A stretch of 33,348 bases of DNA from Rhizobacter sp. (GTDB taxonomy: Bacteria > Pseudomonadota > Gammaproteobacteria > Burkholderiales > Burkholderiaceae_C). This document shows, one piece after another, positions 12,118-16,476 of the stretch (within the stretch, counting starts at the first letter, position 1; each line of letters begins with the position of its first letter). Where the stretch lies: the NCBI GenBank assembly GCA_021732645.1, contig JAKFUQ010000073.1, positions 1-33,348 on the forward strand, in the 5' to 3' direction. Both the position numbers and the translations under genes were made by a program. The notes below the pieces were generated by a model. The model was given only the letters and a program-made list of their open reading frames with translations. It did no database searches and was not told the DNA's origin.

Positions 12118-13728
12118 TCAGTACAAAGTACGCTCAGCCATCGGCGGCGGCACCCACTGATAAAGCCAAGTTTCTGTCAGCGACTGCCCCTCACAGCTGA
12201 GGTACAGCCGCAACTCGATCGGCTCGGTCGAGGCGGTCGGCACGACATCGAACAAGGCCCGGTAGCCGCGCACCGCGTGCAATGGCCGCGCCGAGGTGGT
12301 TTCGATGCGGGCGCCGGCTGACGCCGTAATCACCGCCGTCACCGCCGCGTTCGCACCGATCAGCGCCAGGTCGCCGCCGGAAAAATCGACCGCGAAGCGC
12401 CACGAAAAATACGTGCGCTTCTTGCCGACGACCCCGCCCAGGCCGGTGCGAGTGGCCACGCACTTCGCCAGCGGCGGCTGCGCGGGTGCCTGCGCACCCC
12501 AGTAGAGCCGGTAGCCCAGCAGCAACTCCTCGCCGGCCTGGGGCTTGCGCGCCGGGTTCCAGAACGCGACGATGTTGTCGAAGGTTTCGTCCACCGTCGG
12601 GATCTCGACCAGCTGCACCGAGCCCGCGCCCCAGCCCGATTTGGGCTCGACCCACAGGCTGGGCCGCTTCTCGTAGAACACGCCGTCGTCCTGGTAGTGG
12701 TCGAACGCGCGGTCTCGTTGCAGCAGGCCGAAGCCGCGCGGGTTGTTGTCTTGGAAGGCGTTGAAGGCGAGCTGGCGCGGGTTGGTCAGCGGGCGCCAGA
12801 TCCACTCGCCGTTGCCGGTCCACATCGCGAGGCCGTCGCTGTCGTGGATCTCGCCGCGCCAGTCGTAGCCCATGCGGCGGTCGTTCTCGCCGGTCTGGAA
12901 CATGCTGGTGCAGGGCGCGATGCCGAGGCGATCGATGGTTGTGCGCGGGTACAGCGCAACATCGATGTCCATCACCTGCGTGTCGCCCGGCGTGATGACG
13001 AAGCGGTAGGCGCCGGTCACGCTGGGCGAGTCGAGCAGCGCGTACACCGTGATGCTGTTCGAGCCCACGGCCGGGCGTTCGAGCCAGAAGCCTGTGAAGT
13101 TCGGAAACTCCTCCGGCGTCGGCGCACCCGTGTCGATCGCCAGGCCGCGTGCCGACAGGCCGTACTGCCACTCGCCACCGACCGCGCGGAAATAGCTGGC
13201 ACCCAGGAAGGCGGTGATGTCGCGCTGCAAGTCGGTATGAAAATTCAGCCGGAAGCCGGCGAAGCCGAGGTCGCGCGGCAGTTTCGCGTCGGCCAGGCCG
13301 CTTTTGCCCTGATCGAACATGTCGGGCACATAGGCCAGTTCCTGCGCCACGCCGTCGGCCAGCTCGTACAGCCGCACCGGCGACTTGAAGTACAGCCCGA
13401 GGTGAAAGAACTGCGCCTGAAAGCGCCGTTTGTCGCCGCGCCACAGCGCCTGGTCGGGGCGGAATCGGATCGACTGGTACGCGTCCCAGTCGAGCGCCTC
13501 GACCGCTTGGGGCAGCCGCGTGCTCGGTGGCGCGTAGGGCTTGCGCGACAGCGAGAGCGCCTGCCCCTTCAAGCCCGCGTAGTCAAAGCGCTGCGGCGCG
13601 GCGATGGCCTGCAGCTTCTCGGCCCAGGCGGGCACGGCAGCGCTGCCCGCCAGCGCCGCGAGGCTGGTGATGAACTGCCGGCGTGGAAGGGGCCGGTGGG
13701 CGCTCGCCGTCACGCGACCGTTCGTCAC
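12118..13728 (-). CDS. opgD: Glucan biosynthesis protein D (OpgD/MdoD), Tat-exported
   Basis: OpgD is a periplasmic protein that shapes osmoregulated periplasmic glucans. The product (536 residues from this start; E. coli OpgD is about 551) carries a twin-arginine signal (PRRQFITSLAALAG, Arg16-Arg17, cleavage likely after VPAWA). It then shows typical blocks such as FDYAGLKGQA, FHLGLYFKSPVRLYE, LGFAGFRLNF, SMFQTGENDRR, ENDRRMGYDWRGEIHDSDGL and NNPRGFGLLQRDR. The Tat signal separates OpgD from the Sec-exported OpgG. The GTG at 13728 overlaps the stop of the DUF427 gene (GTGA) and is preferred; another GTG lies at residue 6. No opgH glucosyltransferase gene is near. Confidence 0.93.
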   Translation of the reverse strand: MTNGRVTASAHRPLPRRQFITSLAALAGSAAVPAWAEKLQAIAAPQRFDYAGLKGQALSLSRKPYAPPSTRLPQAVEALDWDAYQSIRFRPDQALWRGDKRRFQAQFFHLGLYFKSPVRLYELADGVAQELAYVPDMFDQGKSGLADAKLPRDLGFAGFRLNFHTDLQRDITAFLGASYFRAVGGEWQYGLSARGLAIDTGAPTPEEFPNFTGFWLERPAVGSNSITVYALLDSPSVTGAYRFVITPGDTQVMDIDVALYPRTTIDRLGIAPCTSMFQTGENDRRMGYDWRGEIHDSDGLAMWTGNGEWIWRPLTNPRQLAFNAFQDNNPRGFGLLQRDRAFDHYQDDGVFYEKRPSLWVEPKSGWGAGSVQLVEIPTVDETFDNIVAFWNPARKPQAGEELLLGYRLYWGAQAPAQPPLAKCVATRTGLGGVVGKKRTYFSWRFAVDFSGGDLALIGANAAVTAVITASAGARIETTSARPLHAVRGYRALFDVVPTASTEPIELRLYLSCEGQSLTETWLYQWVPPPMAERTLY

Positions 13729-14003
13729 TCGACGGTGACGCCTTTGGCGAACGCGACCCGGCCCTTGATGTTGGAGGCGGCCTCGGTCGGCTCGGGGTAG
13801 TACCAGACCGCGTTCTCGTTCATGTCGCCTTCGACCATCAGGCTGTAATAGTGCGCTTGACCCTTCCACGCGCAGCCGGTGCGGTGGTTGCTGAAGGTCA
13901 CATGCTGGCGCTGCAAGCTGGCTTCGGGGAAATAAGAGTTGCCTTCGACGGTCACGATGTCGTCGCTCTCGGCAATGGTCACGCCTTTCCAGGTGGCTTT
14001 CAT
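13725..14003 (-). CDS. DUF427 domain-containing protein
   Basis: A 92-residue single-domain protein of the DUF427 family (beta-rich, function not established). Family landmarks: KATWKGVTIAESDD, GNSYFPEASL, GCAWKGQAHYYS and a C-terminal NIKGRVAFAKGV. An AAAGGA ribosome site precedes the ATG at 14003. It overlaps opgD by four bases and follows the WYL regulator gene by 73 bases in the same direction, so the three may be one transcript. Confidence 0.9.
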   Translation of the reverse strand: MKATWKGVTIAESDDIVTVEGNSYFPEASLQRQHVTFSNHRTGCAWKGQAHYYSLMVEGDMNENAVWYYPEPTEAASNIKGRVAFAKGVTVE

Positions 14004-14076: not shown

Positions 14077-15087
14077 TCAAGCGTACAACGCCGCGGCGTG
14101 CTGCAAGCGGCGGCCCACGGCGGTGGCCAGCGCCTTGTCGCCGGTCACACGCACGCTGTCGCCATGCCGCAAGATGTCCATCATCAGCTCGGTCGCGTCG
14201 ACGTACGGCACTTTCAGTTCGTAGCACCCGTCGCCATCGGCCGGACCCAGCCAGCGCGAGGTTTGCTGCGGGTGCCATTCCTCGTTGGCCACCCACTGCG
14301 CGGCATCGGGCTCGAACACCAGCGTGGCCCATTTCACTCTTTCGCCCGCACCGCCATAGATGCCATAGCCCGCATCAAGCGCGGTCTCCAGGTCTTTCAG
14401 CGCCACCGACTTGGCGCGGCTGTCCAGCGAGCGCGCCGCCTTGACCGCATCGAGTGCAAACCGGCGCAGGCCGTCGCTGGCGTGGCACCACGCGTCCAGG
14501 TACCAGGTGTTGCGGTAGTTGACCAGCCGCTGCGGTGACACCTCACGTTCGCTGGTCGTGCGGTCGCTGCGCTTGAAGTAGCGCAACCACACCCGCTTGC
14601 GCTGCACCAGCGCGCTGCCCAACAGCTCGAAATGCTGGCTCGGCACGCGGCGCCGCGCCGTGCCGATCACCTTGACGCGTCGCACCAGCTCGCGGGCCTC
14701 GGACTCGTCGGCACCCAGCAGGCCCTGCAGCCGGTCCATCATGGGTTGCAGGTGCCGCGCCAGCACGCCATCGTCGTCGAGCCCGGCCATCAGCTGGTGC
14801 ATGGTCAGCAACGCATGCAGCTCGCGTTCGCTGAACCAGATGCCCGGCAGCTCGTGATGTGCCGATTTCGTCGCTGCGTTGGCACCGACCGGGGGACCGT
14901 CGAGGCGGTAGCCGTTGTCGGCGCGGGTGTAGGTGATCGGTGCGCCCAAGCGGTCGCGCAGGTACTGCAAGTCACGCTTCAGTGTGGCGGGCGACACCGC
15001 CAGCTCGGCTTGCAGCGTGTCGAAGCTGACGCAGCCACGGCCGCGCAGCAGCAACTCGATCTTGTAGAAGCGTTCGGTTCGGTCCAT
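14077..15087 (-). CDS. WYL-domain transcriptional regulator (YafY-like)
   Basis: A 336-residue regulator with an N-terminal winged helix (residues about 1-60: MDRTERFYKIELLLRG, recognition part VSPATLKRDLQYLRD), a central WYL domain (about 150-225, with NTWYLDAWCH giving the family motif) and a C-terminal WCX-type extension. Such proteins bind nucleic-acid or nucleotide ligands and often control DNA-damage or defence genes; this group, lacking such neighbours, has no known target. The ATG at 15087 has GGAG seven bases upstream; the frame is open far upstream only because of high GC. Two palindromes at 15124-15142 and 15187-15205 lie just upstream and are candidate operators. Confidence 0.93.
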   Translation of the reverse strand: MDRTERFYKIELLLRGRGCVSFDTLQAELAVSPATLKRDLQYLRDRLGAPITYTRADNGYRLDGPPVGANAATKSAHHELPGIWFSERELHALLTMHQLMAGLDDDGVLARHLQPMMDRLQGLLGADESEARELVRRVKVIGTARRRVPSQHFELLGSALVQRKRVWLRYFKRSDRTTSEREVSPQRLVNYRNTWYLDAWCHASDGLRRFALDAVKAARSLDSRAKSVALKDLETALDAGYGIYGGAGERVKWATLVFEPDAAQWVANEEWHPQQTSRWLGPADGDGCYELKVPYVDATELMMDILRHGDSVRVTGDKALATAVGRRLQHAAALYA

Positions 15088-15123
15088 GGGTGACTCCGCG
15101 GTGGTTTCGCGATAACACACAGG

Positions 15124-15142
15124 TGGCTCACCCGATGAGCCA
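15124..15142. promoter_or_regulatory. Palindromic site 1 upstream of the WYL regulator
   Basis: TGGCTCACCCGATGAGCCA is a perfect 7-5-7 inverted repeat, 37 bases upstream of the regulator's ATG. A near-identical copy lies exactly 63 bases away (15187-15205). Candidate operator for autoregulation; not proven. Confidence 0.55.
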
Positions 15143-15186
15143 GCATTTGCCGAGCATACGCGAAATAGTTTTGCATCAGGCTCAGC

Positions 15187-15205
15187 TGGCTCACCCCATG
15201 AGCCT
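15187..15205. promoter_or_regulatory. Palindromic site 2 upstream of the WYL regulator
   Basis: TGGCTCACCCCATGAGCCT repeats the first site with two changes and has a 6-base perfect dyad. It is nearer the divergent HNH-like gene (start 15265). Two same-facing copies 63 bases apart would lie on the same side of the helix. Confidence 0.55.
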
Positions 15206-15264
15206 GTGGCTGCACACACTGCATCCTTCGCGGCATGTCGCTGCGCCCCCAAGGAGCCCCCGCC

Positions 15265-16476
15265 ATGACCACCCACCTGTCCGCCCGAAGCGGGACCGCC
15301 ACAGACCTTGCCACCCCCGACCTGTTCGCCCTCGACCTCGCCGCGGTCAACCTCCCCAGCGCGCCGCTGCGAGCCCGCCCACCGGCCGCCTTGCTGACCA
15401 CGCACGAACACATCGGGTTCGAGCTCGGCTGGGACCACGCGCACCACGGCGTCACGCCACCCGCGCCCCACGCGCAGGATCCGTCGCCGCTGCGCCATGG
15501 CTGGATGGCAGGCGTTGCGGCCTTCGATGCGCGCACGCTCGCGCCCACCCCCGCGGTGCGTCAGTGGTTGCAACTGCGGCTGCACGCCTGGCTGCACGGG
15601 CGCAACGTCGAGTTGTTCCAGGTCACGCCGCGGCAATTGCAGCGGCTCGCCGTCAGCCACTGCCCGATCACCCGCCTGGCGCTGGACCACCCGGGCGACG
15701 CGGGCCAGCGCGCGTCCATCGACCGCGTGCGCAACGACGCCGGCTACGCTGCGGGCAACCTGGTGGTGCTGAGCGCGCAGGCGCAGCTGGCGAAGGCCGC
15801 CCACGGCTTCGAAAGCGCCCTCGGCATGGCGCGCCGCCTTGAGGCCAGCGGCGAGCACCGCAACAGCGGGCCGCAAACACACGACGGCTTGGGCGCGCAG
15901 CCCTGGGGCCGCCTCGCGGTGCTGTGCAGCTTTGTCGAGCCCCTGCCGCATGCCCGCGCCGCCTCGCTGCCGCTGCTGGTGCTGCCACCGAACCGGCTGC
16001 GGCTGTTCAACCCGGTGCAGGCCTTGCAGGCGTTCATCAGCCGACAGTTGCTCAACGCCGGCTGGAGCCAGCGCATCAACGCGTTCGAAGCGCTGCTGCC
16101 GAGCGCGCCCGTGCGTCGCGCCTTCCGCGGGTTTTTTCAGGCGTGGCTGCCGCGCGTGCTTGAAGCCGGGCGCTCCGTTGACCCGCAACAGGCGCGCTGG
16201 GCGATTGAAGACGCCTGGCGCCACGCGCCAGTGATGCAGCGCTGGGTGCGCTTCGCAACGCTGCTCGACGCCCCGCAGTGCGAGGCCCTGTTGTCGCGTG
16301 CGGTGGCCCATGGTCTGCTGCCCGGTGGCCTGCGCGTCGAGGTGGTGGCCGATGACCTGGCGACCGAGGGCTGGTGCCTGAACACCAAGGGCTGTGTGCC
16401 GCACGGCCGCGTGATGCGCCCCTCGCGCAGGCGGGCATCGCCAGACGACGCACCGGTTGCCCAGACGGTGCATTGA
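15265..16476 (+). CDS. Hypothetical protein with an HNH-like motif
   Basis: A 403-residue protein I do not recognise as a whole. Residues about 131-170 resemble the core of HNH-type folds: SHCPITRLAL, then SIDRVRNDAGYAAGNLVVLS, which parallels the SxDRxxNxxGYxxGNxxxVS pattern of small HNH proteins. Only one of the usual metal-binding cysteines is visible (Cys133), so nuclease activity is doubtful. The C-terminal half is rich in Arg, Ala and Leu, with no membrane segments. AAGGAG precedes the ATG at 15265 with nine bases between. It is divergent from the WYL regulator and shares the intergenic region with the two palindromes, so it may be that regulator's target. Confidence 0.75.
   Translation: MTTHLSARSGTATDLATPDLFALDLAAVNLPSAPLRARPPAALLTTHEHIGFELGWDHAHHGVTPPAPHAQDPSPLRHGWMAGVAAFDARTLAPTPAVRQWLQLRLHAWLHGRNVELFQVTPRQLQRLAVSHCPITRLALDHPGDAGQRASIDRVRNDAGYAAGNLVVLSAQAQLAKAAHGFESALGMARRLEASGEHRNSGPQTHDGLGAQPWGRLAVLCSFVEPLPHARAASLPLLVLPPNRLRLFNPVQALQAFISRQLLNAGWSQRINAFEALLPSAPVRRAFRGFFQAWLPRVLEAGRSVDPQQARWAIEDAWRHAPVMQRWVRFATLLDAPQCEALLSRAVAHGLLPGGLRVEVVADDLATEGWCLNTKGCVPHGRVMRPSRRRASPDDAPVAQTVH

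Follow-up and report, generated by a model that had tools for sequence, protein, structure and literature searches.

The window, which is the whole stretch of 33,348 nucleotides of Rhizobacter sp. DNA that was analyzed, contains a gene for a WYL regulator, P0001, and a divergent gene for an HNH-like nuclease, P0002. Two palindromes, referred to as sites 1 and 2, are found between them (Table 1). All three domains of the HTH-WYL-WCX regulators were present in P0001, with an N-terminal HTH domain (HTH_11, 28.1 bits, cutoff of 25) followed by the WYL (70.6 bits, cutoff of 21.8) and WCX (37 bits, cutoff of 23.9) domains of Pfam. The PDB relatives of the WYL protein (profile A1) included PafBC (5.7e-28) and DriD (8.2e-10). 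Of the ligand arginines R201 and R204 of PafC, the first is kept in P0001 (R208) and the second is replaced by Ala211; Ala or Ser was also found at this position in the orthologues of A1. Given that the arginine pair is only half conserved, the ligand of P0001 may differ, and ssDNA sensing may not carry over to P0001. The single-sequence structure model of P0001 was poor (pLDDT of 45) and was left out of the analysis.

P0002 had no match in Pfam, and its orthologues matched the PHROG annotations "endonuclease" (2e-10) and "HNH endonuclease" (5e-5). The structure model of P0002 was good (pLDDT of 87) and matched no PDB fold. Downstream of the WYL gene, a MdoG/OpgG-type glucan biosynthesis gene and a DUF427 gene (positions 12118–14003 of the window) showed no sign of regulon membership. 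PADLOC matched the neighbours in the window to no named defence system.

Table 1. Genes, predicted operators and candidate promoter elements of the WYL/HNH locus (window positions).
Feature	Position	Strand	Basis or remark
WYL regulator gene (P0001, 336 amino acid residues; HTH_11, WYL and WCX)	14077–15087	-	Pfam
TGTTATCGC, TGnTA extended -10-like element, +16 to +24 from site 1; candidate WYL promoter	15109–15117	-	Conservation
Site 1, predicted WYL-proximal operator, TGGCTCACCCGATGAGCCA	15124–15142 (centre 15133)		Sequence; twin position kept in orthologues
TATGCT, second candidate -10 of the WYL gene	15153–15158	-	Alignment of 13 twin loci
Additional GGCTCA half-site adjoining site 2	15179–15184	+	Window sequence
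Site 2, predicted HNH-proximal operator, TGGCTCACCCCATGAGCCT	15187–15205 (centre 15196)		Site in all 61 divergent-HNH loci
CACACTG (conserved nAnACTG), spanning +19 to +25 relative to the site 2 centre; probable HNH -10 element	15215–15221	+	Conservation
Divergent HNH-like nuclease gene (P0002)	15265–16476	+	Start at 15265 preferred over 15235

The preliminary description had placed two palindromes, 63 bp apart, between the WYL regulator and the divergent HNH-like gene, and both their positions and their distance were confirmed. The arms of site 1 are complementary at 7 of 7 positions and those of site 2 at 6 of 7. With up to three mismatches allowed, the palindrome pattern matched the window five times, compared with 0.04 matches expected from shuffled sequences, which excludes chance. 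The genome scan for further copies that the description had called for identified seven copies of the 12-base core GGCTCAN5TGAGCC in the whole assembly (G000, 2.78 Mb), five of them beyond this locus. The promoter-like element was absent from all five, and at least two of them fall inside genes (pps and uvrA).

A WYL orthologue was common among 100 relatives. A contig scan yielded 80 orthologous WYL loci, from Rhizobacter, Piscinibacter, Ideonella, Roseateles, Rubrivivax and others. If the palindromes were an operator of the WYL regulator, as had been proposed, they should recur upstream of its orthologues, which they did: GCTCAN5TGAGC with no more than one mismatch was found within 300 bp of the WYL start in 71 of the 80 loci, and perfect cores numbered 89 in the 24 kb upstream of the 80 WYL genes vs. 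1 in the other 654 kb. At up to one mismatch, there were 103 sites in the 24 kb upstream of WYL vs. 37 in the 654 kb elsewhere. Every examined genome of the same genus that had a full-length close orthologue also possessed twin palindromes upstream of WYL, some of which carry one or two mismatches. The predicted operator is kept across dozens of Burkholderiales, and site 2 is conserved more widely than site 1. Conservation upstream of the orthologues supports the predicted WYL-regulator operator between the regulator and the divergent gene.

The predicted operator was also associated with the HNH-like gene. Each of the 61 loci whose divergent gene is HNH had it vs. 9 of the 17 loci without HNH, the other 8 lacking it (Fisher p = 1e-6). 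The HNH-like gene was confined to WYL-bearing genomes and its full-length copies adjoined WYL; the exceptions were fragments, distant homologues or displaced copies. In Pelomonas Root1237 (L122), for instance, the HNH gene has moved ~1.4 kb away from WYL, with the site and CAAACTG still next to HNH. In three Paucibacter-like loci (L117, L119, and L126), the divergent gene encodes a SRAP protein (YedK/HMCES-type, Pfam E-values down to 3e-24) instead of HNH, and WYL and the site remain. In G022, G036, and G045, alignments of the HNH-like homologues run through in-frame TGA stops. The HNH-like gene may therefore be decaying in some lineages, with the operator and WYL persisting.

The distance between the operator and a promoter-like element was fixed. 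Counted from the operator centre on the HNH strand, 45 of 58 non-redundant loci had ANACT beginning at +20, and the other 50 offsets together accounted for just two occurrences. A+20, A+22, C+23, and T+24 did not vary among 23 non-redundant twin loci, and their conservation in 39 single-site loci was 82–92%. With nAnACT read as the -10 element, the operator centre lies at about -31, over the -35 position, and transcription of the HNH-like gene would start near 15227. The would-be -35 element agreed with TTGACA at 0–2 of 6 positions throughout the 72 loci. On the WYL strand at site 1, G+17 was conserved in 84% and A+20 in 92% of 25 non-redundant sites, and an outward TA was found at +19, in the same register, in 15 of 23 twins. 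Moreover, TATGCT or TAAGCT was present in the twin class with a spacing of 63–67 bp, at a position that floats relative to both sites. The -10 element on the WYL side is thus ambiguous between TGnTA and TATGCT. In some orthologues the WYL start codon is too near for the register to hold, and in two genera (G026 and G032) the ANACTG form points outward from both twins. Given that each operator is constrained to its own outward -10 element, the twins are best read, from the aligned sequences, as two back-to-back promoter units in which an operator would take the place of the -35 element.

The preliminary description had placed the twins exactly six helical turns apart, on one face of the DNA, and had considered this spacing suited to cooperative binding or looping. 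The distance of 63 bp in the window, 64–67 bp in many orthologues, and 55–56 bp, about one turn less, in others would agree with this idea. However, the centre-to-centre spacings in 39 twin loci were 43, 55–56, 63–67, 74, 79, 90, 108, and 116 bp, with modes at 64–65 and 55–56 bp, and about half of the WYL orthologues have a single site. When each spacing mode was counted once, helical phasing was not significant (Rayleigh p about 0.2), and looping or phasing was rejected as the main reading on this test. The variable spacing, in which values such as 79, 90, and 116 bp occur, disfavors a precise loop, and the outward -10 elements account for the pair without one. Thus, the figure of six turns did not hold across the orthologues, and it is highly improbable that the twin operators cooperate by looping or same-face binding.

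The composite of operator and -10 element, GCTCAN5TGAGCN12ANACTG, was searched in 101 genomes with up to one mismatch, and the reversed composite served as control. About 95 matches were found vs. 3 for the control; a looser composite gave 46 matches vs. 0 in 18 genomes. The composite matched the window's own genome at this locus only, and a genome-wide regulon within that genome was rejected for this reason. Away from WYL/HNH, 46 matches were found in 46 WYL-bearing genomes vs. 9 in 55 genomes without WYL (p = 1.4e-6), with means of 1.0 and 0.16 per genome, respectively. Genes downstream of composite matches included recC in four genomes of the same genus, rmuC, SRAP, and a gene for an RNase_H_2/AAA helicase-nuclease, as well as the defence genes for DISARM DrmD (6e-97) and Cas3e (8.7e-157). 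A retron-type reverse transcriptase gene (RT_XIII, 1.7e-73) followed the composite in two species of the same genus, both with a WYL paralogue. The remaining matches were upstream of unknown genes or IS1595-type transposases or were positioned inside genes, so the functional picture of the regulon is a strong tendency and not a full list.

A perfect palindrome was also found upstream of recA in six WYL-bearing genomes of six genera (G028, G045, G049, G052, G070, and G099), with about 0.02 expected, and in none of the examined WYL-lacking genomes; of about 44 genomes with WYL, only these 6 have recA as a putative target. No recA was present in the window's assembly. The recA promoters of the same genus have a LexA-like box and no WYL site, and a connection to LexA was rejected. 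Different from the family, most sampled order-level relatives (L284–L303) lack the LexA-like box CTGTN8MCAG upstream of recA, and two order-level relatives (G070 and G099) have the WYL palindrome there.

G008 and G014 (L164–L167 and L217) possess a WYL paralogue with 48% identity and a related palindrome nearby. Besides the retron-type reverse transcriptase gene, the composite precedes an unknown 349-residue gene and a VWA-domain gene there, which suggests that a further WYL regulon exists and is linked to a retron-like system. In three genera (L214, L241, and L249), the composite is before or near IS1595-type transposase genes; it is possible that these transposons are hitch-hiking on the regulon.

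Given that the palindromes are conserved, lie at a fixed distance from the promoter, and recur before repair and defence genes in relatives, both are almost certainly binding sites, as predicted, of the adjacent WYL regulator itself. It is extremely improbable that they are targets of a different transcription factor or serve as hairpins or terminators at the RNA level. Hairpins can form from inverted repeats that have 5-base loops, and two Roseateles-like genomes are enriched in plain palindromes: G043 and G028 (L132–L147) contain 45 and 35 perfect GGCTCAN5TGAGCC palindromes genome-wide, respectively, far above other relatives and with neither a -10 element nor T-runs. However, the occurrence of composite matches follows that of the WYL gene, and where SRAP replaces HNH, the site is retained beside WYL. 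A terminator or hairpin was rejected because no T-run follows the sites.

Another reading of the same sites is that the WYL protein is a repressor of the BrxR/CapW type, which would cover the HNH and WYL promoters until released by a signal. BrxR, a WYL repressor, binds inverted repeats of 11 bp separated by 5 bp (PMC9122601). Overlap with the -35 position is also possible for a repressor, and in the 63–67 bp class site 1 could sit just downstream of a TATGCT promoter. An activator, however, fits better with the rigid distance from operator to -10 over unrelated targets that have no recognizable -35, and the PDB profile ranked PafBC and DriD, which are HTH-WYL-WCX activators, above BrxR and CapW. 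Repression is considered rather unlikely.

Cryo-EM of DriD showed a WYL dimer that sits over the -35 position, with the distance to a weak -10 kept constant, and that activates a divergent gene, and DriD promoters have poor -35 elements (PMC12340889). We regard a DriD-type activation of the HNH-like gene, combined with autoregulation and with DNA damage or invading DNA as the signal, as fairly likely. A homodimer of the WYL protein would bind TGGCTCAN5TGAGCCA. At site 2, whose centre would precede the start of the HNH transcript by ~31 bp and lie over the -35 position, the dimer would contact RNA polymerase and substitute for the missing -35 element, by which the HNH-like nuclease gene would be switched on. 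Site 1 would be a second such unit that faces the WYL gene and mediates autoregulation. By analogy with the family and from the targets in relatives, DNA damage or invading DNA may be perceived by the WYL domain in the form of a nucleic-acid ligand. Thus, P0001 most likely represents a new WYL activator of Burkholderiales with its own predicted operator code, and by the same analogy it is probably damage-responsive. We give an even chance to the wider proposal of an undescribed Burkholderiales regulon in which a homodimeric WYL activator, bound to TGGCTCAN5TGAGCCA 19 bp from a weak -10, would control repair (recA, recC, rmuC, and SRAP) and defence genes (drmD, cas3, retron-type RT, and HNH-like) beside LexA and would be re-wired between lineages.

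Neither this operator nor a WYL damage regulon of Burkholderiales was described in the open-access literature searched, and plasmid searches returned distant relatives only. The palindrome provides a testable DNA code, tied to repair and phage-defence genes, for a WYL subfamily without an operator in the literature searched. If the proposed activation is true, the SOS-independent WYL damage responses of Caulobacter and actinobacteria would reach a large environmental group of beta-proteobacteria, and an orphan nuclease family would be a core target of a WYL regulator.

Among the known systems, DriD of Caulobacter crescentus (PMC12340889, PMC4211646) also belongs to the family of HTH-WYL-WCX homodimers. 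Similar to the predicted arrangement here, its palindrome of ~20 bp overlaps the -35 position and keeps a constant distance to a weak -10, and its site is in the intergenic region shared with the divergent gene that DriD activates. DriD also has a small damage regulon with nuclease and recombination genes. Different from DriD, whose operator is ATACGACAGTAACTGTCGTAT / CGACAGTNACTGTCG, the operator here is TGGCTCAN5TGAGCCA; sequence similarity is limited to WYL-WCX and the partner genes differ. SiwR of Mycobacterium smegmatis, a WYL activator in genotoxic stress, recognizes a 19-bp palindrome between the -35 and -10 elements in the promoter of neighbouring genes (PMC10693628), but it is actinobacterial, has DinB/YfiT-like targets and uses another operator. 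PafBC (PMC11804915), the best PDB relative of P0001 (5.7e-28), is a damage-responsive WYL activator as well; it is, however, a heterodimer with sigma adaptation, and the second ligand arginine of PafC is not kept in P0001. BrxR and CapW (PMC9122601, PMC9122588) share a link to phage defence and, ahead of the regulator, inverted repeats spaced by 5 bp, but they are repressors, the arms are 11 bp in BrxR, and their similarity to P0001 is weaker. Judged from its sequence, the WYL protein would thus belong to the WYL activators, with a predicted operator and regulon that are new.
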